From the NCBI GenBank assembly GCA_900208305.1, contig OAPG01000005.1:124001-188000 (forward strand): a stretch of DNA of 64,000 bases, given 5' to 3'. The stretch is from Melanopsichium pennsylvanicum. Taxonomy: Eukaryota; Basidiomycota; Ustilaginomycetes; Ustilaginales. The stretch's first letter is position 1. Every line of letters starts with the position of its first letter. Under the pieces are notes generated by a model, which did no database searches, was not told the origin of the DNA, and worked only from the letters and a program-made list of their open reading frames with translations. Below, in pieces: positions 2,510 to 17,102 of this stretch. The translations under genes were made by a program, and so were the position numbers.

Positions 2510-5500
2510 TCACCCGAGACCGTTGAACGTCATCGAAGCTCCTGCGCCCCCACCTAAGATGGCTACGGCTTTCTTGAAACTCATTCCCTTTTTTACCGGT
2601 TCCTCCACGGCACGGTCTAGCGAACCCATTTCACCGGCGAACGCAGCGGCCTTTGGATCACCTCCCATCCCCTGCTGCTGCGTCAAACCATTCGGAGCAG
2701 GCCTACCAACACCATCCGAAAGACCTTCCAGGGTGGCAGGCTTGCCGGCTTCACCTGTGCGACCGAAATTTGGAATCGTTGCCGGTCTAGACGTACCCCA
2801 CTCTGCAGGGTTTGTCCTGAACGTGTTCACATATGCGCTCTCTCCTGCCATCGAATTGCGTCCGAAAGCACCTAGGCCAGCTTCTGAAGCAAATGCACCC
2901 TCTCGAGGGAATCGAGAGTACCCCGGCAGAGCGCTGAACCGGCTATTAGCCGCGCCTACCCCAAGTCGGGAAGTGGCACCGACACCAGTTTCTGTCACCA
3001 CGGGCGCTTTCGAGAGAAGCGAAGCAGCTCCGCCCGCGGACTCGGCCAGAACGGGGCCTTTGGTGAAAAGAGACGCAGCGGCGCTTTCAGCTTCTACCGC
3101 ACCCGCAAATCCCAGAGGTGCGCGTTTGTCGAAGGTCTGCGTGCTTCGCTTCTTGAGTACTGGAGCTGGTCCATCGGCTTCATCGTAGCTTTGCGGAGAA
3201 ATGGTCGTGCCGCCGTTATTGAACACACCGTTCAAAATGGGAGGAGCGCCATTGGCATACCTACCACTGTAAGCGGGAGTAAAACCAGGCGAGGTCGTAG
3301 CTAGAGAATTGGAAGAAGCAGGCGTGCCAGCAGCCATACTATATCCACCCATTTGCCCAGCCCCTACTCCAAACCCAGCACCAGCACCAGTCGTCGCAGG
3401 TCTCTTCGACATCAGATATTGGGTGTAGAGGTCACCACCAGGAACCATAGGACCAAGAGTATTGGCATTTGGCGTAACGAGAGGAACTGGCTTGTGCTTT
3501 TGCTTCTCCGCGACTACAAGATTGGCACCGAGCGTTCCGACGAACATGGCCGTTCCCCCTACACTGAGGAAAGTGCCAATACCAGGTGCGCGCTTTGAGA
3601 GCGATTGAGCTTCATGTTCGTTGCCAGTGGTTTTGGGCAGGTCGCGCTTTCTAAGCGATACAGTGTTGCCCCCGGCACTATAACTACCAGCTTGCATACC
3701 AGCAGCAGAGTTGAGCGAAGATGCGAGTGACGGAGAACCTCCTCCTCCAGTGAAACCACCACCGCCGCCGCCGCCGCCGCCGTAGTAAGAGCTGCCTACC
3801 ATGCTAATGCCCGATCTATAAGTAGGAGCAGCACCGTAACCACCAGCACCCGCTCCACCAGCTCCTGATGCAGAGTAAACACCAGTAGATGCATACCCAT
3901 CGCCTGCCGCAGGATAAGCGATACCCACACCGCCAACTGGATCTCCTGCAGCAACTGGAAGGCCGGCGAAACTACCAGCTCCTCCACCACCACTTCCGGG
4001 AGGACTTCCACCATACGAAGCAGCCTGCTGTGCAGCCATGGCCTCCGCTTCCTGCTGCTTCCGCTCACGCTTTTTTTGGTCCCTTTCCTCGTCTTTGTCT
4101 CCAGGAAACATCGTCACTGACTGGGCATACCCCAAAAGTAATCCTGCGGCACCAAGACCCATGTTGAACAACGTGCCACGCTTGTGCAAACGGGTCTGGG
4201 CACGATGTGAATCTCTTTTTCGCAATACAGGCTGTGCATCGGTGGTTGATGGCTCACCGTTGATAGTTGTAGACGAAGAAAGTGCCATCTGATTGCGTTG
4301 ATATTCACGCAATGCGGCCGCCTGATCCGCGAGGTACTGCTGCTGTGAAGCTGTCTGAGCGTTCGCTTGCTGTCGTAATTGCTGGGTTTGGAGCTGCGTC
4401 ACGTAGTTGGTATAGCCTGGCATGGCGTTAGTGGCTAGCTGGCCGGGGATGCGACCGGGAACACCCACCGCGCCGTACGTGGGCGTGTCGTCGAGATCCT
4501 TGAGAATGTCGCGGTCACGAGTGTTGTATTGTCGCCATCTAGTATGCTTCAAAGTGGTTATCATCAGAGGTATGACGCTACCAATTGTAACTGCAGTTGC
4601 GACCCTTCCCCAAGGTCCACCAGCGAACATGCGCTTGTCGATACGCGATCTGGCTTTAGCTTTGTCGTTCTTGACATCAGTCTTGTGCTCAGATACAAGT
4701 GCCCTCTTGCGAAGCACAGGCTGGGGTGAAGCAGAGGTCGATGAAGCAGTGGAATCTCCACTATAATCGTGAGCGCTACCGGTGCTGGTTGAGAAAGCTT
4801 GTTGATAGTAAGGAACGTAATGGGGTTGAGGCTGAATTTGCAACTCAGGGCTGTAGGCCGAGTCAGGGAATCTGATGTCAGCCATGTCGGGAGGTCCAGA
4901 AGCAGGGTTCCCGAGAGCATTGCCAAAAGCTTGCGATTGTGGTGGGGCAAGCACAGGCAGGGCCTTATTTGGGTCAGCAGCGGCAGCAGCAAACTCGTCC
5001 TTCTGCTTAAGCATGTTTGGGTCATAAGGATCGAAAGGCGGTTTGTCGATCACGGGCTTTTTGCCCATGACCATCGAAGGAACTCCAGGAACGATCGCCG
5101 CTCCGAGTATCAGGCCAATACCTGTTGCTGCAAGCATTCTCTTCTTCACATTCTCAGCTTGACCTTTGTGGTGCTCGCGATCGCGAGACACCTTGCGTTT
5201 GACCATTCGATTTTGGACGTGACTTGAAGCATCAACCTTGTCGGAGAGGCTGCGCTTCTTCAGGTACTTCTGAGCACGGATTACGGGAATACTGCGCCTT
5301 TGCTTCTCACCCGACCCACTAGAATCATGGCTGACCTCGGGCACGGGCATGATGTCGTAATGGCTTCCGTCCCAGCGAGCAGCCGTGTCGATCAGCGTCG
5401 GGGGAGTCGGAGGAGCGGAGAATTGAGATGTCGACAAGGCTGTCGTTTTGGCTGCAAACAAAAAGTTGACCATGTTCAGAATGCCGGATGTGATACCGAT

Positions 5501-6024
5501 GGCACTGCCAATTCGCTGAGGTAACGACGAGAAGCAATTAAAAGGAATTGTGTGAGCGAGAAGTCATAATAGAATGGATTCTGTTGCGACGAACTTACAG
5601 TGATTGTCGGGAACTTGGGAGGTGGCCTGCCAGTTTCAGCAATGTGTAGTGCATCCTCGACATGCATGGATTGTTTCTTGTCCTTGTAAGCCTGACGACC
5701 TTTGGCCTCAATATCCGCGATCTCATCTTCGAGGCGAGCAAGGACATGCTCTTGCAGCTTCAGGTTTGATGTAGCTTCTTGAGCAACTTGAATTTCGGTC
5801 AGTGGTGGGACGCCGCGAGTCTTCTTGGGGCTCGACTCGTGGTGTTTGTGGAGAGATTGGCCAAGATGGGAAGCGTTCTTTAGCTTTGCCTTTTCACGTT
5901 TGCTTTCAAAGCTGCGCTTCTTGAATTTATGGTGCCTAAGTGCATCTTGAGCCGGCCCCGGCGCTGCTTGCGCCGTAAAGGCCAGGCAAGCCAAGCTGAG
6001 GAGGAGCAAGAGCTCGACTCGCAT
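2510..6024 (-). CDS. Secreted protein with repeated dibasic (KEX2-type) sites and hydrophobic Gly-rich segments; unrecognised
   Basis: Two exons: 6024-5599 (142 codons) and 5515-2510, joined across an 83-nt intron with a GTAAGT donor and CAG acceptor; splicing stays in frame and gives about 1143 residues. The N-terminus has a clear signal peptide (MRVELLLLLSLACLAFTAQA). The rest is built from a recurring pattern: a PVL[RK]KR-like site, a short basic spacer of 8-24 residues, a second KR, then at once a hydrophobic Gly/Ala-rich segment of 20-27 residues. KR pairs directly preceding such segments lie at about residues 267, 436, 587, 783 and 939. A further hydrophobic segment is formed at the exon junction (about 143-169), and the protein ends in another. 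Linkers are rich in Gln, Tyr, Gly and Ser, including a poly-Gly run near residue 720. KEX2 cleavage in the Golgi would release these pieces; that is inference. Alternatively they are membrane-spanning helices with basic flanks. I recognise no known family. Confidence 0.8.
5516..5598 (-). other. Spliceosomal intron in the dibasic-site secreted protein gene
   Basis: The sense strand begins GTAAGTTCG and ends TTACCTCAG. Removing these 83 nt joins two ORFs in phase 0. Without splicing, the signal-peptide ORF stops at 5476 and the downstream 987-codon frame would lack a secretion signal. The in-frame join that also creates a hydrophobic segment supports the intron; no transcript data were available. 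Confidence 0.8.
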
Positions 6025-7521
6025 GACGAGTTGGTCACTGAAAACTCAAAGACTCAGCTGGATGTAGGTGAGGCCAGCCTCTGAGGGGATCGTTCTTGTC
6101 CGGCAGTGTTGTATACTGTAGCTACTTGAAAAATCCTATCGAGGTTGAAGGATATGATGGTGGAAGCGAGCCAAGAGCAAGAGATGTGGTGGGACTGCCA
6201 TACTACACACAGGATAGTTCGGAGCGAACCGAAAGAGGGCAGGCCTGACCTGCAGTAGTATGCTGTGTGTTACCGTGATGTACTCACGTATGAAGTCAAT
6301 TTGGCTGCGCGTGACTTTCATCGTATCGTGGGCTCATTGGCGAAAGCTCGGTATTGCTCAGATGAAGCCGTGCTTAAGTACTCAATACCTCCTAAGTGTA
6401 CTCAATACCTCCTAAGAGTACTTAATACCTCCAAAAGACTGATTGATCCTTTCGACTCATCGCGTCAAAGTCAGATAAACAACTTCCTCACAACAACGCT
6501 TGCAGCAGTGTGCAATGCGTATTGGAAGCTCAGCAAGCCGTTGTGGCGAAGTCGTAGTGACCACAAAAGAAGGAAGAGAGGGTTGAAGGGCTTCTTCGAA
6601 TCGTGGCTCCAAGGTGGGTGAGTGATGGTGACAAGATTCATTTCCATCCATCGCCAGGCGTGGGTGAACATGTCTCGCGCTGTATCATACAGTATACGAA
6701 AATGACCCACTAAAGATATCAAGCTGGAATGAATGAGAAAATTCAGAGAGGGTTTCCAGGCTGATTGTTACAGCGAGCAGATGCTCAAGCTAAGGACGGG
6801 GTGTGATTGCGCTTCAGAGAGTTGGTGGGAGCGGATCCCCTGGCGGTGAAATGAAGCCACATAGTCACAATCACGCACCGCTCTTAGCACAGTTCCGATC
6901 AAATATTACGACCCAATGTTGTCCCAAAATGCAGCAGATACAATCACGAATACCTTCAACGCAACCACCGTCACTTCACTTCTGTTGAACCCACTGCGCC
7001 CAAGCGGTTACCGTCCTCACAATTCTAAGCGTGGGTGATCCGATCGTGCTAGATACGGTAGCGAGATTAAGCCATCCAGCCTCGACTAATGAGTTGTCAT
7101 ACTCGTCCTCGCTCACAGGCGGATAGGTCCCGCATCAATGATTGAAGATTTGTTGCTCCTCGAAGTGGGCTGTGCCTTCCGCTCTCTTCAACATCGAATG
7201 CAGTCTAAGTCTTTTGCAAGGGACAGTGAAGTTCGAAGGGACCACAGCGGTGGCTTTCTGATCTGGTTGCAGCCAAGAGCAAGTCACAGGTGCGTCGTCT
7301 TCTCCGCATACTGTAGCTCCCTACCAAAGTTCGCCGGGCAGAGAGAATGCACTTGCTCTACAAGATCGAGTCGACATCGTCAAATTGATCCAAATCACGT
7401 CAGGCAGAGTCCTTCATACCTTCCATCGTTGTTATCTATCGTTCTTATACCCGAGTGTTTTAGCTTAGGTTGGCTTTCCTCTCCACATTCCCTACATTTT
7501 TTCCGCTTTTCCTCTGTTACG
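6025..7521. promoter_or_regulatory. Divergent intergenic/promoter region between two secreted-protein genes
   Basis: This 1.5 kb stretch separates the starts of the dibasic-site protein (-) and the CAP protein (+), so it must hold both promoters. Apart from the 20-bp tandem repeat at 6375-6432 I see no recognisable gene. An ATG at 7138 is in frame with the CAP protein but is treated as upstream sequence because a clean signal peptide starts at 7522. The last 60 bases before 7522 are pyrimidine-rich, as is common just upstream of fungal start codons. Confidence 0.6.
6375..6432. repeat. Three tandem copies of a 20-bp unit (TAAGNGTACTCAATACCTCC)
   Basis: Three adjacent copies of 18, 20 and 20 bp share the core GTACT(C/T)AATACCTCC; the first lacks two bases and the third has one C-to-T change. 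They lie about 350 bp upstream of the dibasic-site protein gene and about 1.1 kb upstream of the CAP gene. They could be a cis-regulatory cluster or a minisatellite. Confidence 0.85.
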
Positions 7522-8967
7522 ATGGCTCGGTTTTCGCATGCTGTCAGCATGGCGCTGGTCGCCATGATCTGCATTGCATGTTGTGCCCCGGTTCTAGCTG
7601 TGGCGAATTTTGTTCCTCGCTCGGTTCATTATACTCACCAAGGCATTCTTCGAGCTTTAATTGCGAAAAGGGCTTCAGCCGTAGACAATCCGGACAGCAA
7701 CGGCTCGCTCGGATCATATCTTCAAGACCAGATCAAAAAATTGTCTTCTGCCTCGGCCAAAAAAGGGGGTCAAGAGCAGGTGAAGGAAGCTGACTTGCTG
7801 GGTCAGCATGTTCAGATCAAAGCTCAAAGTGATCTGACGGGCCCTTCCAAGTCTTGGTCCTGGTCCTGGTCCTCTCACTTGTCCTCTTCGTCTTCTTCTT
7901 CCAATCATAGAGATAAGAGCTTCAAGAGCTCGGACGACAGTAGCTTCCAACAAAACCAGTCTGAAGACCATGCAACAGAGAAGCAAAGCGACTATGACAC
8001 TCAGCGCCATAGTGCCCCTCAGCCAGTCCAGGCGCATGTCGAGGACTATTCCAGTCATACTGAGCACCATCATGACTCTAGCCACCAAATTTCGACCTGG
8101 GTAACCGACAAGGAAGGCAAAACGAGCAACAAGAGTTCCATGTCCAAGACATCATCCTCGACGTTCACCTCTTCGTACAGCCATTTTATGAATGTTTTCA
8201 AATACGTCATTAGCGGCAATACCGATCAGTCAGTCAACCCTTCTCCTTTCACGGACGTTCACGTGGAGTGGAGTCGATCGCCCGTGTCTTCAGCTGCCAA
8301 CGCGATCATTCAAGCCACAGGCCAACCTATCGCCCGACCAGCCAGAGCCGATACTTGCAACCGTCGTTTTCCCTTCACCAACAAGTCATATACTATTCAA
8401 GACAAGGATCACCGTTTCGACACTGCCTTCCCTAAGGAAGCTCTCGACCCCGTGTCCAAGGCCGCACTTGACATTCACAACGCTGAACGTGCTCGCTACA
8501 ATCTTCCTTCCTTGCAGTGGAATGTCGAGTTGGCCAACATGGCAGCTTGCTGGGCTGATCTCAAGGCATACGGACACTCTGAGGATCACTTTTGCGCTTC
8601 GGGCGAGAACATTGCCGTGGGACTAGGCGACCCCTGCTACAGCGATCCGATGATTGGGATGAAGAACGCAATCATGTCCTTTTTGGATGAAGACCGCAAC
8701 TGGGCTCAAAGCCCTCATGTTTCGGAAAGCACCGGCCACTGGTCTCAGATAGTGTGGAAGGATACACTTTTTGTGGGTTGTGCTGTGTCCCAACGCAAGG
8801 GGTTCATGCAAGACTACAGCCCCAATGACAGAGCGTCGATGTACGTGGTCTGCGAGTACTATCCTCCTGGAAACGTGGACGGAGAATATGATAGGCAGGT
8901 GCCAACTGTCGCACCTATGCCGCAGCTGCGCTCTACCTGCTCGGCCAACGAGAAGCACGGCAGCTAA
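7522..8967 (+). CDS. Secreted CAP/SCP (PR-1-like, PRY) protein with Ser-rich region
   Basis: The 481-residue product starts at ATG 7522, where a signal peptide (MARFSHAVSMALVAMICIAC...) begins; the frame is open back to 7138 but that part has no domain. Residues about 25-310 are low complexity: a Trp/Ser patch (SWSWSWSSHLSSSSSSS, about 109-125), His- and Ser/Thr-rich stretches and KSSMSKTSSSTFTSS. The CAP domain spans about 313-450: HNAERARYNLPSLQW, a GHS histidine, GENIAVGLG, the CAP1 signature GHWSQIVW (about 405) and the CAP2 signature YVVCEYYPPGNV (about 440). CAP proteins of yeast (Pry) bind sterols and export hydrophobic compounds; smut PR-1-like proteins with a Ser/Thr-rich region are reported as surface-located virulence factors. 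This looks like that architecture. At the position of the CNYD motif, the reported cleavage site releasing CAPE-like peptides, this protein has CEYY followed by PPGNVDGEY. Confidence 0.9.
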   Translation: MARFSHAVSMALVAMICIACCAPVLAVANFVPRSVHYTHQGILRALIAKRASAVDNPDSNGSLGSYLQDQIKKLSSASAKKGGQEQVKEADLLGQHVQIKAQSDLTGPSKSWSWSWSSHLSSSSSSSNHRDKSFKSSDDSSFQQNQSEDHATEKQSDYDTQRHSAPQPVQAHVEDYSSHTEHHHDSSHQISTWVTDKEGKTSNKSSMSKTSSSTFTSSYSHFMNVFKYVISGNTDQSVNPSPFTDVHVEWSRSPVSSAANAIIQATGQPIARPARADTCNRRFPFTNKSYTIQDKDHRFDTAFPKEALDPVSKAALDIHNAERARYNLPSLQWNVELANMAACWADLKAYGHSEDHFCASGENIAVGLGDPCYSDPMIGMKNAIMSFLDEDRNWAQSPHVSESTGHWSQIVWKDTLFVGCAVSQRKGFMQDYSPNDRASMYVVCEYYPPGNVDGEYDRQVPTVAPMPQLRSTCSANEKHGS

Positions 8968-9974: not shown

Positions 9975-12185
9975 ATGCGAGCTTCATCGTCAGCATACGG
10001 TATCAAGGGCATCTTCCCACTTGTTCGGACGCTCACGCCACAGGCTGTTTCACGTCCGTTTGCTCTTCCAGCGCTGAGAGGCGTACGACTCGCTATCGAC
10101 GCCACATTGTTAGTACAGCGTCTCCACTTCGCCGACGACCCACACCCATCACGCCACGTGATCGGCTTCTACCGCCTCATCACATCGCTACGACAACATG
10201 ACGTTGTACCAATCATGGTCTTTGACCACCCGAAAAAGCGACTGGCCCTCAAAGATCGCGAACATGTCAAGCGCAGGCACAAGCGTGAGCTCGACCGAAT
10301 CCGCAGCCGGCTCGAACACGAACGACGAGGACGTCTACAGGAGCTGCAAACGCATCTGGACGCGTTGTCCGAATTACAGGAGTCGGAACGACGTCAGGTA
10401 GGCGAGCTGCTGGATCAATGGCGGATGCCACCGTCGAAATCAAATGCTCCACCACCGACACTGTCAGCTCCGCCACCGTTACCTCCAGGTCCGTTACCTC
10501 CAGGTCCGTTACCTCCAGGTCCGTTACCTCCAGGTCCGTTACCTCCAGGTCCGTTACCTCCAGCACCTACGACACCCCAAATAGTAGCCCAAAGCATGCA
10601 CACAAACTGGCTTCAGCTCGAAGAAACCCTCCGCAACGCTGGCACTGGCCAGTCCAAAGGACAGAAGATGCTTGCGCAAGCAGAGCAGTCACTGTACGAA
10701 ACAATTGCAACCCAACTCATCTCCGGCCAATCTCCTCAGCCACTGCCGCCCCTTGCGTCAGACCTGCTTTCTACTGCTCCGTCGGCTGAGGTTGCTCCAC
10801 AGCATTCTCTGAGCTCGTTGACAGCCATGCACACGTCTCTAACCAAAACTTACGCTCGCGCCACAACGCCTCTCTCTGCCGCCATCTACCAGGACTGCGC
10901 CACGCTGTCCTCACTCATGGCCGTGCCTGTGTTTTGGACCGGCGACGGCACCCGGACTGGGGGAGGAAGGGTGCACGAAGCCGAAGCGTACGCCGCTTCT
11001 CTTGTCCGAGCCGGTTTCGCCGACCTTGTTGCGAGCGAAGATAGTGACGTGCTGCTGTACGAGGCGCCACTGCTGCGTGGGCTGATGGGTGGGGTACGCT
11101 CGCCTGGTGTACTCACGAAAGAGGGTGGTAGGGGCAAATTGGAGGTGATCTGCGGTAATCGAGTGCGCAACGGCCTTTTCCCAAAACACGATCTCGTAAA
11201 GTTTCTCCCACTCCACCCCAGCAATGAGGCGGCCAAGACGGCGGAGGAACTATCATACGACCGTCTCACTCGATCGTTGATGCTGGACTTTGCCCTGCTT
11301 TGCGGTACAGACTTTAATCGCACAGTCCCGGGAATTGGGCCCAAAACCGCTCTTCGGCTGCTGAAGGAGCACGGCAGCATATCAACCATCTTGAAGAAGG
11401 AGAGTAAGAAATTCAGGCCTCCAGATGGCTTGAGTGTGAGGGAGTACGAGACAGAATTGAGGGGGGCGAGGATGGTATTCTTGCAACCGCCGAAAGTTAG
11501 GGCGATGGCGAGATCGATTTTGGGACCTCAGGCTGTTGAGGCGGCTGCGGATGTTGTAGAGCGACAAACGAGTTGTGTGACTGTGGAGAAGGTGTTGTTT
11601 TCGAGCGATGCTTCTGAAATGGGTACAATTGTATCTGCTTTGACGCTCGATGAGACAGCAGAATCCGATGTTGGAGCTGTGGGTGCCGAGTTGAATCTTT
11701 TCTGTACAGCAGAGCCAGCGGTCGAAAGTGAAGTGGTTAGGGTCGCTACGGATGCGATCAGTATCGTCGGAACTGACACTTCACCTGAGGACCATGTAAG
11801 CAGTCCGGTGGAAGAAGTGGTCTACGATAGGCAAAAAGTACACGACTTTTTACGTGCCCATGGCGTCTTTCGAACCTCGTTCTCAGCCTCGAATTCCTCA
11901 TTCTCTTCTCTCGACGAGTTCGATTATGAGCCCGCGCGCGAGCAAGAGTGGAGAGATTTACTCGATCTCGAACTTGGTCTCACCACATCCAATTCTTCTC
12001 CAACTTGCTCTTACTCCGATAGAAGTATGAATCAAAAAGGGGGGGAGAAAGGAAAAGTCATGGCAAGGGCATCATTGGGTGCCGACTTTTTCGGCGAGCG
12101 AAACGCAGTGGCGTGTTGGCAGCCTCATATGGAGCAACATGTGCGAGAGGGGACTAGGGCTTCAATTCGAAATGACTCTGCATGA
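9975..12185 (+). CDS. XPG/Rad2-family (FEN1-like) structure-specific nuclease
   Basis: The 736-residue protein carries the split XPG nuclease domain. The N part (residues about 10-110) has GIKGIFPLVRTL and the metal-binding Asp in RLAIDATLL, then a Lys/Arg-rich helical stretch. The I part (about 310-470) has HEAEAYAASLVRAG with the catalytic acidic pair, ASEDSDVLLY with the next two acidic residues, and LDFALLCGTDF followed by the helix-two-turn-helix VPGIGPKTALRLLKEHG. These are the active-site signatures of FEN1, EXO1 and XPG, so catalysis on branched DNA is likely. A linker of some 200 residues between N and I is unusual for FEN1 and contains six PPGPL repeats; the I-domain C-flank runs into an unrecognised tail. 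The exact subfamily cannot be decided by eye: it is longer than FEN1 (about 380) and lacks recognisable EXO1 or XPG tails. ATG 9975 is the first in-frame ATG. Confidence 0.85.
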   Translation: MRASSSAYGIKGIFPLVRTLTPQAVSRPFALPALRGVRLAIDATLLVQRLHFADDPHPSRHVIGFYRLITSLRQHDVVPIMVFDHPKKRLALKDREHVKRRHKRELDRIRSRLEHERRGRLQELQTHLDALSELQESERRQVGELLDQWRMPPSKSNAPPPTLSAPPPLPPGPLPPGPLPPGPLPPGPLPPGPLPPAPTTPQIVAQSMHTNWLQLEETLRNAGTGQSKGQKMLAQAEQSLYETIATQLISGQSPQPLPPLASDLLSTAPSAEVAPQHSLSSLTAMHTSLTKTYARATTPLSAAIYQDCATLSSLMAVPVFWTGDGTRTGGGRVHEAEAYAASLVRAGFADLVASEDSDVLLYEAPLLRGLMGGVRSPGVLTKEGGRGKLEVICGNRVRNGLFPKHDLVKFLPLHPSNEAAKTAEELSYDRLTRSLMLDFALLCGTDFNRTVPGIGPKTALRLLKEHGSISTILKKESKKFRPPDGLSVREYETELRGARMVFLQPPKVRAMARSILGPQAVEAAADVVERQTSCVTVEKVLFSSDASEMGTIVSALTLDETAESDVGAVGAELNLFCTAEPAVESEVVRVATDAISIVGTDTSPEDHVSSPVEEVVYDRQKVHDFLRAHGVFRTSFSASNSSFSSLDEFDYEPAREQEWRDLLDLELGLTTSNSSPTCSYSDRSMNQKGGEKGKVMARASLGADFFGERNAVACWQPHMEQHVREGTRASIRNDSA
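10477..10566. repeat. Minisatellite of six 15-bp units inside the XPG-family gene
   Basis: Five identical copies of CCGTTACCTCCAGGT and a sixth ending CCAGCA, encoding tandem Pro-Leu-Pro-Pro-Gly. Units are whole codons, so copy-number change keeps the frame. Near identity suggests recent expansion. Confidence 0.95.
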
Positions 12186-15701: not shown

Positions 15702-17007
15702 ATGGCTGCACCCGCCAACACTGATGCGCTCGGTCTGCTGAGCGCAGCGCTCAACTCTTCCGACAAGAAAACCGAGGCCCTTCACCTCTCGGAGCTCTAT
15801 GATCTTCTCAAGGTGCAACCAGGCAACATTCCAATCCTCTTGCCTTCCCTCATCTCGCTTTTGCCAAAGTCAGGCACTTCATTACGAACATGGATCGCTC
15901 AAGTCATGGATCTCGCCTTTTGCCGTCCCGCTCTCTCTCAAGACACCAAGGCCACCTTGGCAACACATGCACCCGAAGCCATACTCTTGCTCATCAAAGA
16001 CAGAGATCCACGTCTCACCAAGATCGCCTCGCAATGCTTTGCAAGCATGTACCCCATTCTCTTCCGCCTCGTTTGTAACGATCGCGCAAAGTCCAGCCTC
16101 TGGCACACCGTCCAAAACATCAAAGCGCAAGTCGTCCATCTCTTCGACCACGCCAGTCAAGGAACCAAGCTCGCCGTCATCAAGTGCTATCAGCGCATCG
16201 TCCAAGTCCAGTCTCGTGGCTCCACCGATCCTCGTGCCCAGCTCAAGAATGATGTCAGCCTCGCCAACGTTCCATCCGCACATCCCTTCCTCAATGCCAC
16301 CAACCTTGAAGAGGAGGCAAATCGTCTCTTCGCTCAGATCGTCACATTAATTTTCACCAGCGACGTCGTTGATCTCATCATGGCCTCTGTCAACTCGCTC
16401 ACAATTCTCGCCAAATCACGCCCCCAACTCGGCTCAGTCATCCTTCGTGCCATGGCCACTTGGACCCCAGCAAGTCTTGGCAACCTCACACACACTCAAG
16501 TACGAAATGTCGAAAAGACCGTGCGCGTCTTCTGTCTTCATTTCCTCAAAAATCAGATCGCAGGTCCCGAGTCCGCGTCGCTACAGAAGGCACTGGAAGC
16601 ACAACAGAGACGTATGGAAGAAGCTGCTCAGGCGTACCAACTCAAGAAGGAGGTCGAGGCCAAGAAGAAACGCGAAAGAATCGACGAGGAACTGATCGAC
16701 GCACCCAAGAAGATCAAACTCGAGCACCAGCACCATGGTATGCCAGGCACATCCGCAGCGCAAGAGGGTGAGACCGCCGCTGCAGGAGAGGCTTTCCTCA
16801 ACGCTTCTGTTCGAACCACGGGCGGCGTCGAACGTAACCCTCTAGCTGCATTCGATGTCAAGACGCTCCCCATCGCACTCGTCATCGATCTCATCATCGC
16901 CAATCTCCAAGCGCTGTCAGAACACGACCTCCACACAGCCATCGCCAATATGCGCGCAAATCTTCCACCAGACGTATCCACTTCAACATCACCACCACCA
17001 CCACCAC

Positions 17008-17041
<34 letters not shown>

Positions 17042-17052
17042 ACAACAACAGC

Positions 17053-17102
<50 letters not shown>

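Follow-up and report, generated by a model that had tools for sequence, protein, structure and literature searches.

A smut secretory precursor with a conserved Kex2 signature and its probable maturation into membrane-headed polypeptides

The precursor gene, its neighbours and its homologues

The window considered here is a 64,000-nucleotide stretch of the Melanopsichium pennsylvanicum genome (contig OAPG01000005.1, positions 124,001 to 188,000). On its minus strand lies a two-exon gene (Table 1), which bears out the large precursor that a preliminary description, made from the DNA letters, had placed at this locus. The product begins with a hydrophobic N-terminus that we read, by eye and from hydropathy, as a secretion signal, and the same feature is found in 12 of 20 aligned homologues (P0001-P0012), in all of which the signal-peptide exon is joined in line to exon 2, as had been supposed when this exon was assigned to the gene. 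The other eight homologue models start later, one of them, P0018 (Ustilago bromivora), coming from an annotated genome. Searches of the M. pennsylvanicum genome for paralogues (21.1 Mb in 61 contigs, with the best candidates scored) returned the precursor gene alone, so that one copy was found. A Pfam scan of the 1143-residue product returned no family at an E-value of 1, in agreement with the earlier remark that its modules match no recognised precursor. Among the 21 rows of the alignment, one matched Pinin_SDK_memA (E 0.0049), and a PDB sequence search with the profile of alignment A3 gave five weak matches (four FAM155A chains and 1tyg, E 0.02 to 0.46); all of these were put down to low complexity.

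Table 1. Features of the precursor locus, in positions of the window and residues of the precursor
Feature	Residues	Position	Strand	Remarks
Precursor gene, whole		2510..6024	minus	1143 aa; exon junction in line with 12 of 20 aligned homologues
Exon 1		6024-5599	minus	ATG at 6024
Intron, GT-AG, 83 bases		5598-5516	minus	
Exon 2, including stop		5515-2510	minus	stop codon 2512-2510
Signal peptide	1-20	5965..6024	minus	by eye; KD19 peak 1.93
Hydrophobic segment 0	143-169	5435..5515	minus	without a dibasic in front
Site B1	265-268	5138..5149	minus	[KR]R with hydrophobic P4 in 21 of 21
Product 1 (predicted)	269-413	4703..5137	minus	ends in A1; head 1 with invariant GxxxG 276/280
Spacer 1 (predicted)	414-437	4631..4702	minus	ends in B2
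Product 2 (predicted)	438-576	4214..4630	minus	ends in A2; most conserved module
Spacer 2 (predicted)	577-588	4178..4213	minus	ends in B3
Product 3 (predicted)	589-766	3644..4177	minus	ends in A3; head 3 with invariant GxxxG 600/604
Spacer 3 (predicted)	767-784	3590..3643	minus	ends in B4
Product 4 (predicted)	785-932	3146..3589	minus	ends in A4
Spacer 4 (predicted)	933-940	3122..3145	minus	ends in B5
Product 5 (predicted)	941-1143	2513..3121	minus	Ala/Gly-rich, not membrane-like
CAP protein gene		7522..8964	plus	divergent neighbour, outside the precursor; CAP domain; C-terminal end like UmCAPE-Lb

The divergent neighbour encodes a CAP protein ending in PPGNVDGEYDRQVPTVAPMPQLRSTCSANEKHGS, which resembles the UmCAPE-Lb peptide of UmPR-1Lb, UMAG_04343 (PMC10505147), and the gene is probably the orthologue of UmPR-1Lb. 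On one side of it lies the precursor gene, with thr4 beyond, and on the other a gene encoding XPG nuclease domains. Several repeats lie in the surroundings: a tandem array of period 20 (2.8 copies, 6377-6432) in the divergent promoter region between the precursor and CAP genes, a perfect 15-base repeat (5.9 copies, 10476-10563) that encodes a Pro/Leu/Gly repeat in the XPG-domain frame, and a run of 32 triplet copies (17006-17102) in a symplekin frame with a long glutamine tract.

Three protein searches, which took proteins of about 600-2000 aa and would therefore miss shorter or differently modelled homologues, gave 17, 17 and 19 matches that together represent 21 different homologues. Fourteen of these carry the names of smut fungi or smut yeasts: species of Ustilago (trichophora, two entries; hordei, nuda, tritici, bromivora, loliicola and sp. 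UG-2017b) and Sporisorium (scitamineum, reilianum and graminicola), which we take to be smut fungi, together with Pseudozyma hubeiensis (two entries) and Kalmanozyma brasiliensis, from genera that we checked as Ustilaginales. None of the 21 is labelled U. maydis or Melanopsichium. Two entries are anomalous: P0017, labelled Cichorium endivia (endive; L1887_47923), belongs to the smut precursor family and is probably a smut contaminant in the endive assembly, and P0021 (650 aa) joins the N-terminal half of the family to an unrelated hydrophobic tail and looks like a chimeric contig, for which reason it was left out of the alignments. Alignment A3 accordingly holds 20 homologues and the M. pennsylvanicum product (21 rows), the homologues being 41-49% identical to the latter; percent identities were taken over the 13 rows that fall below 80% identity. 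Searches of prokaryote and viral contig collections gave 28 and 36 pattern matches, none of which was confirmed, and literature searches by locus tag returned nothing on the precursor gene itself.

Dibasic sites, spacers and hydrophobic heads

The modules of the precursor are bounded by nine dibasic sites, with P1 at residues 268 (B1), 413 (A1), 437 (B2), 576 (A2), 588 (B3), 766 (A3), 784 (B4), 932 (A4) and 940 (B5). The translation agrees with what had been reported from it: five KR pairs are immediately followed by MLAATGIGLILG, MFAGGPWG, GTLFNMGLGAAG, APGIGTFLSVGG and APLGFAGAV, and four of the five are preceded, 24, 12, 18 and 8 residues upstream, by a second dibasic (PVLRKR, PVLRKR, VSLRKR and PVLKKR). 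The sites are thus arranged as A-B pairs that flank spacers. Across 21 sequences and nine sites (189 cells, 188 of them readable), [KR]R with a hydrophobic residue at P4 is found in 187, and P4 is Leu in 180; the sole miss is P0015 at B5 and the sole gap is P0012 at A2, in a row that reads VLRR. Among the other [KR]R dipeptides of the same proteins (n = 164), P4 is hydrophobic in 83 and Leu in 14. Two non-module sites, 625 and 847, were taken as internal controls: 5 and 3 of the 21 rows, respectively, lack the basic pair there, and a hydrophobic P4 occurs in 2 and 3; at site 216 it occurs in 2 of 20. For the non-module sites with P1 at 230 and 249, the rows that have a letter there show a hydrophobic P4 in 8 of 9 cases and in all 16, respectively, and these two may be additional, less conserved cuts.

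The motif described for Kex2 has Arg at P1, with a preference for Lys or Arg at P2 and for Leu or another aliphatic residue at P4 (PMC8528282), so that Leu at P4 together with [KR]R at the nine sites matches the published preference. Asp at P3 is reported there to be unfavourable (PMC8528282); since many alignment rows carry Asp at this position of B2, that site may be cut more slowly. Within the M. pennsylvanicum precursor taken as a single protein, Leu-x-[KR]-R occurs seven times, against a mean of 0.46 and a maximum of 4 in 2000 shuffles, and a dibasic lies 0-11 residues upstream of four of the five hydrophobic peaks, an arrangement reached with a frequency of about 0.002 under circular shifting or random placing. 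The proprotein-convertase P domain is matched once in the M. pennsylvanicum genome, and the reading frame concerned carries a subtilase domain as well.

Per-position identity breaks at the predicted cuts. At the A sites it runs 0.86, 1.00, 0.88, 0.89 and 1.00 from P5 to P1 and then 0.27, 0.16, 0.16 and 0.12 from P1' to P4'; at the B sites positions P12 to P5 stay at 0.10-0.25, P4 reaches 0.77, P3 0.35, P2 0.88 and P1 1.00, followed by 0.28-0.51 downstream (13 non-redundant rows in both cases). The preliminary description had named, as the outcome that would speak against processing, homologues that keep the hydrophobic parts and lose the KR pairs; the homologues show the opposite, and the conservation of their sites supports the Kex2-type processing it proposed. 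These comparisons thus show a precursor that is conserved in smut fungi and bears a strong Kex2 signature.

Trimming of basic ends would leave the M. pennsylvanicum precursor as an N-terminal piece of 245 residues, five further pieces of 142, 136, 175, 145 and 203 residues, and spacers of 22, 10, 16 and 6 residues. With pieces of 136-203 residues bounded by the dibasics, these cuts would not be expected to free hydrophobic peptides of about 20-27 residues, the products originally envisaged. In the non-redundant rows the five modules are 44, 57, 46, 51 and 43% identical and the four spacers 24, 19, 26 and 9%. Variable spacers between conserved A and B cuts would give the picture of an excised connecting peptide. 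In prohormones, such a connecting peptide is removed during maturation. One could turn this around and take the short spacers as the active peptides, precisely bounded by sites as pheromone peptides are, with the headed pieces as their carriers; we consider this very improbable, because the spacers are the least conserved part of the chain (9-26% identity) and vary in length, the P1-to-P1 distance in the 21 rows being 5-25 residues across spacer 2 and 6-18 across spacer 4.

The predicted products 1-4 share a common layout, a hydrophobic Gly-rich head followed by a conserved motif and then by a variable low-complexity tail; for the conserved stretches after the heads, 15-residue means are 0.73 (piece 1), 0.77-0.86 (piece 2), 0.82 (piece 3) and 0.84 (piece 4). 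No homology between the modules is detectable in 21 profile comparisons of seven segments, the best hhalign probability being 26%, for segments 1 and 2 (16 columns); the single-pair E of 0.0007 for these two leaves a weak resemblance between hydrophobic stretches. An AlphaFold2 model of the exon-2 product with alignment A2 (21 sequences) consists of isolated helices at low confidence (mean pLDDT 42, pTM 0.29); it gives no assembly and speaks neither for nor against one.

By their octanol transfer sums, heads 1-4 favour the membrane in 13, 12, 12 and 13 of the 13 non-redundant rows. A Kyte-Doolittle mean of 1.6 is reached in 5, 4, 2 and 1 of 13 rows, which makes the heads borderline, and their hydrophobic moment in the M. 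pennsylvanicum product is low (0.04-0.19). Taken together, these values make the heads look like weak transmembrane helices rather than amphipathic surface peptides. The GxxxG motifs of heads 1 and 3 (Table 1) are present in 21 of 21 rows. Of the five hydrophobic KR-led modules first described, four therefore stand as having membrane-like heads, whereas segment 5 does not, its octanol sum being unfavourable in 13 of 13 non-redundant rows. A further hydrophobic segment, segment 0, had been overlooked; no KR precedes it, its octanol sum is favourable in all 12 rows that have it, and it is helical in the low-confidence AlphaFold2 model.

Proposed maturation and a possible link to Stp5

From the gene structure, the conservation of sites and heads and the variability of the spacers, we infer a route of cleavage, membrane insertion and assembly, and with it a role, in which a smut secretory precursor would act like a fungal prohormone and be cut by Kex2 into membrane-headed polypeptides; we regard this reading as probable. 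The precursor would enter the ER by way of its signal peptide, and Kex2 in the Golgi would cut the nine conserved hydrophobic-x-[KR]-R sites, where P4 is usually Leu. With each A site cut along with its paired B site, the spacer in between would be lost, and Kex1 would presumably trim the basic C-termini. The result would be the N-terminal piece plus five polypeptides, all different and 136-203 residues long; in four of them a borderline transmembrane helix, Gly-rich and non-amphipathic, would form the very N-terminus. Freed in this way, the hydrophobic N-termini would most likely insert into a membrane, be it the plasma membrane of the fungus or its interface with the plant, and the inserted heads would anchor the tails in a 1:1 ratio as a heteromeric assembly at the surface.

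The same features could belong to a polytopic membrane protein that stays intact, its hydrophobic segments numbering about five and its basic pairs being uncut loop flanks. Five borderline transmembrane segments, several of them flanked by basic residues on either side, accord with such a protein, and if the gene is stp5 (see below) its product is a plasma-membrane protein for which a full-length band is marked (PMC8159752). Loop flanks, however, require charge and not Leu at P4, and the A-B pairs around variable spacers are left unexplained. A luminal N-terminus followed by five spans would also place B1, A2, B3, A4 and B5 in the cytosol and A1, B2, A3 and B4 in the lumen, and both groups are equally conserved. 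Kex2 does not act in the cytosol, and given the equal conservation of the two groups the chain most likely enters the lumen and is cut there, the heads acting afterwards. From the first KR onward, the sites that precede each hydrophobic segment are conserved just as well as those that follow it; this weakens the polytopic alternative raised in the preliminary description, which we judge quite unlikely.

The neighbourhood offers a lead to the identity of the gene. The locus tag adjoining that of PR-1Lb, UMAG_04342, is stp5, which encodes a plasma-membrane member of the Ustilago maydis Stp complex, a set of seven proteins needed for virulence (PMC8159752). The precursor gene adjoins the probable PR-1Lb orthologue, the U. 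maydis gene order being taken from locus tags alone. A Pfam search finds two CAP genes in the M. pennsylvanicum genome, at 7522-8964 of the window and at 3660-4655 of a second locus (L007), with C-terminal ends of the UmPR-1Lb and UmPR-1La type, respectively; the second has the CNYD motif reported for UmPR-1La, UMAG_01204 (PMC10505147). About 2.7 kb from this second gene, with no frame longer than 206 aa between, lies a frame in which Pfam recognises a HAD hydrolase domain only and whose sequence beyond that domain reads like a P-type ATPase. In U. maydis, UMAG_01205 is the H+-ATPase gene pma2 (PMC9225265), so that in this one tested case neighbouring tags correspond to neighbouring genes.

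Between thr4 and the CAP gene, no frame among those of at least 80 aa makes another convincing stp5 candidate, although smaller or split genes could escape this limit. Stp5 (UMAG_04342, XP_011391052.1) is described as conserved in smuts, with transmembrane domains predicted in most Stp5 and Stp6 orthologues (PMC8159752), which fits the borderline segments of the precursor. The likeness is drawn from position and description: the expected place beside PR-1Lb and conservation in smuts. On the other side, none of the homologues is labelled U. maydis, the main text of the same paper names Kex2 sites for Stp1 only, and HA fusions except Stp6-HA had the expected sizes, the legends marking full-length HA-Stp5 bands (PMC8159752), which, if the gene is stp5, argues against complete cutting. 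A literature search from 2021 on returned Stp1 together with Kex2 in that paper alone, and in the relevant passages of two further papers Stp5 is just listed. We consider the chances that the precursor gene is smut stp5 to be about even; it may, in that case, be the counterpart of a gene that the maize smut needs for infection.

Should the gene be stp5, the membrane arm of Stp, an effector-delivery complex, might itself be matured by Kex2, with four different Gly-rich hydrophobic N-termini inserting together as a heteromeric anchor or pore at the fungus-plant interface, a proposal that we offer as a long shot. Viral fusion proteins, in which processing exposes fusion peptides, provide a comparison for heads freed by Kex2. 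The gene would then be one already known and its processing would be new, the predicted cuts would specify exact N-termini, and there would be a concrete hypothesis, open to testing, for the construction of the membrane-anchored portion of the smut Stp complex.

Comparison with known Kex2-processed systems

Like the Kex2-processed repeat proteins (KEPs) surveyed in fungi (PMC6339444, PMC7329392), the smut precursor has an N-terminal secretion signal, several conserved Kex2-type dibasic sites (here nine) and multiple predicted products per chain. It differs in that its products are long and no repeated motif is detectable between its modules; the 2019 survey required at least three similar fragments between sites and discarded proteins that TMHMM called membrane-located (PMC6339444), and the best hhalign probability between modules here is the 26% given above. 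Since its modules are not detectably homologous, the precursor is no Kex2 repeat protein, and its architecture would be left out by the rules of that survey as given there. If our reading of its maturation is correct, it represents a type of Kex2 precursor that repeat-based surveys are not designed to detect, with non-repeating, long, membrane-headed products, paired sites and a discarded spacer.

Rep1 of Ustilago maydis, compared here by description, likewise comes from a smut, is a secretory precursor and combines Kex2 sites with a hydrophobic character. In a system of this kind, the pieces would be secreted and would assemble by themselves on the hyphal wall into a water-repellent or fibrillar coat. 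This would suit the shared fungal group, the secretion signal with Kex2-type sites, and the hydrophobic Gly/Ala-rich segments with their low-complexity tails; the Rep1 peptides form amyloid-like fibrils (PMC8528282). They are, however, described as short (about 37 aa), similar to one another and amphipathic, whereas the predicted products of 136-203 residues have non-similar heads of low hydrophobic moment, and a Rep1-like coat seems to us unlikely.

Cleavage into membrane-headed polypeptides, the reading that we favour, also sets the precursor apart from Ece1 of Candida albicans, the source of candidalysin. Ece1 gives non-identical products between KR sites, one of them strongly hydrophobic, and the smut precursor would likewise give non-identical products, but Ece1p has 271 aa and its toxin 31 (PMC5784256), against a precursor of 1143 aa and products of 136-203. 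Candidalysin is a short hydrophobic toxin with KR on both sides, and in the smut precursor no conserved cut follows the heads. The resemblance to Rep1 or Ece1 first noted for this locus thus does not extend to the type of product, given the non-homologous heads, their low moment and the long tails: the smut products would be hydrophobic at the N-terminus only, and their sites are paired around a spacer.
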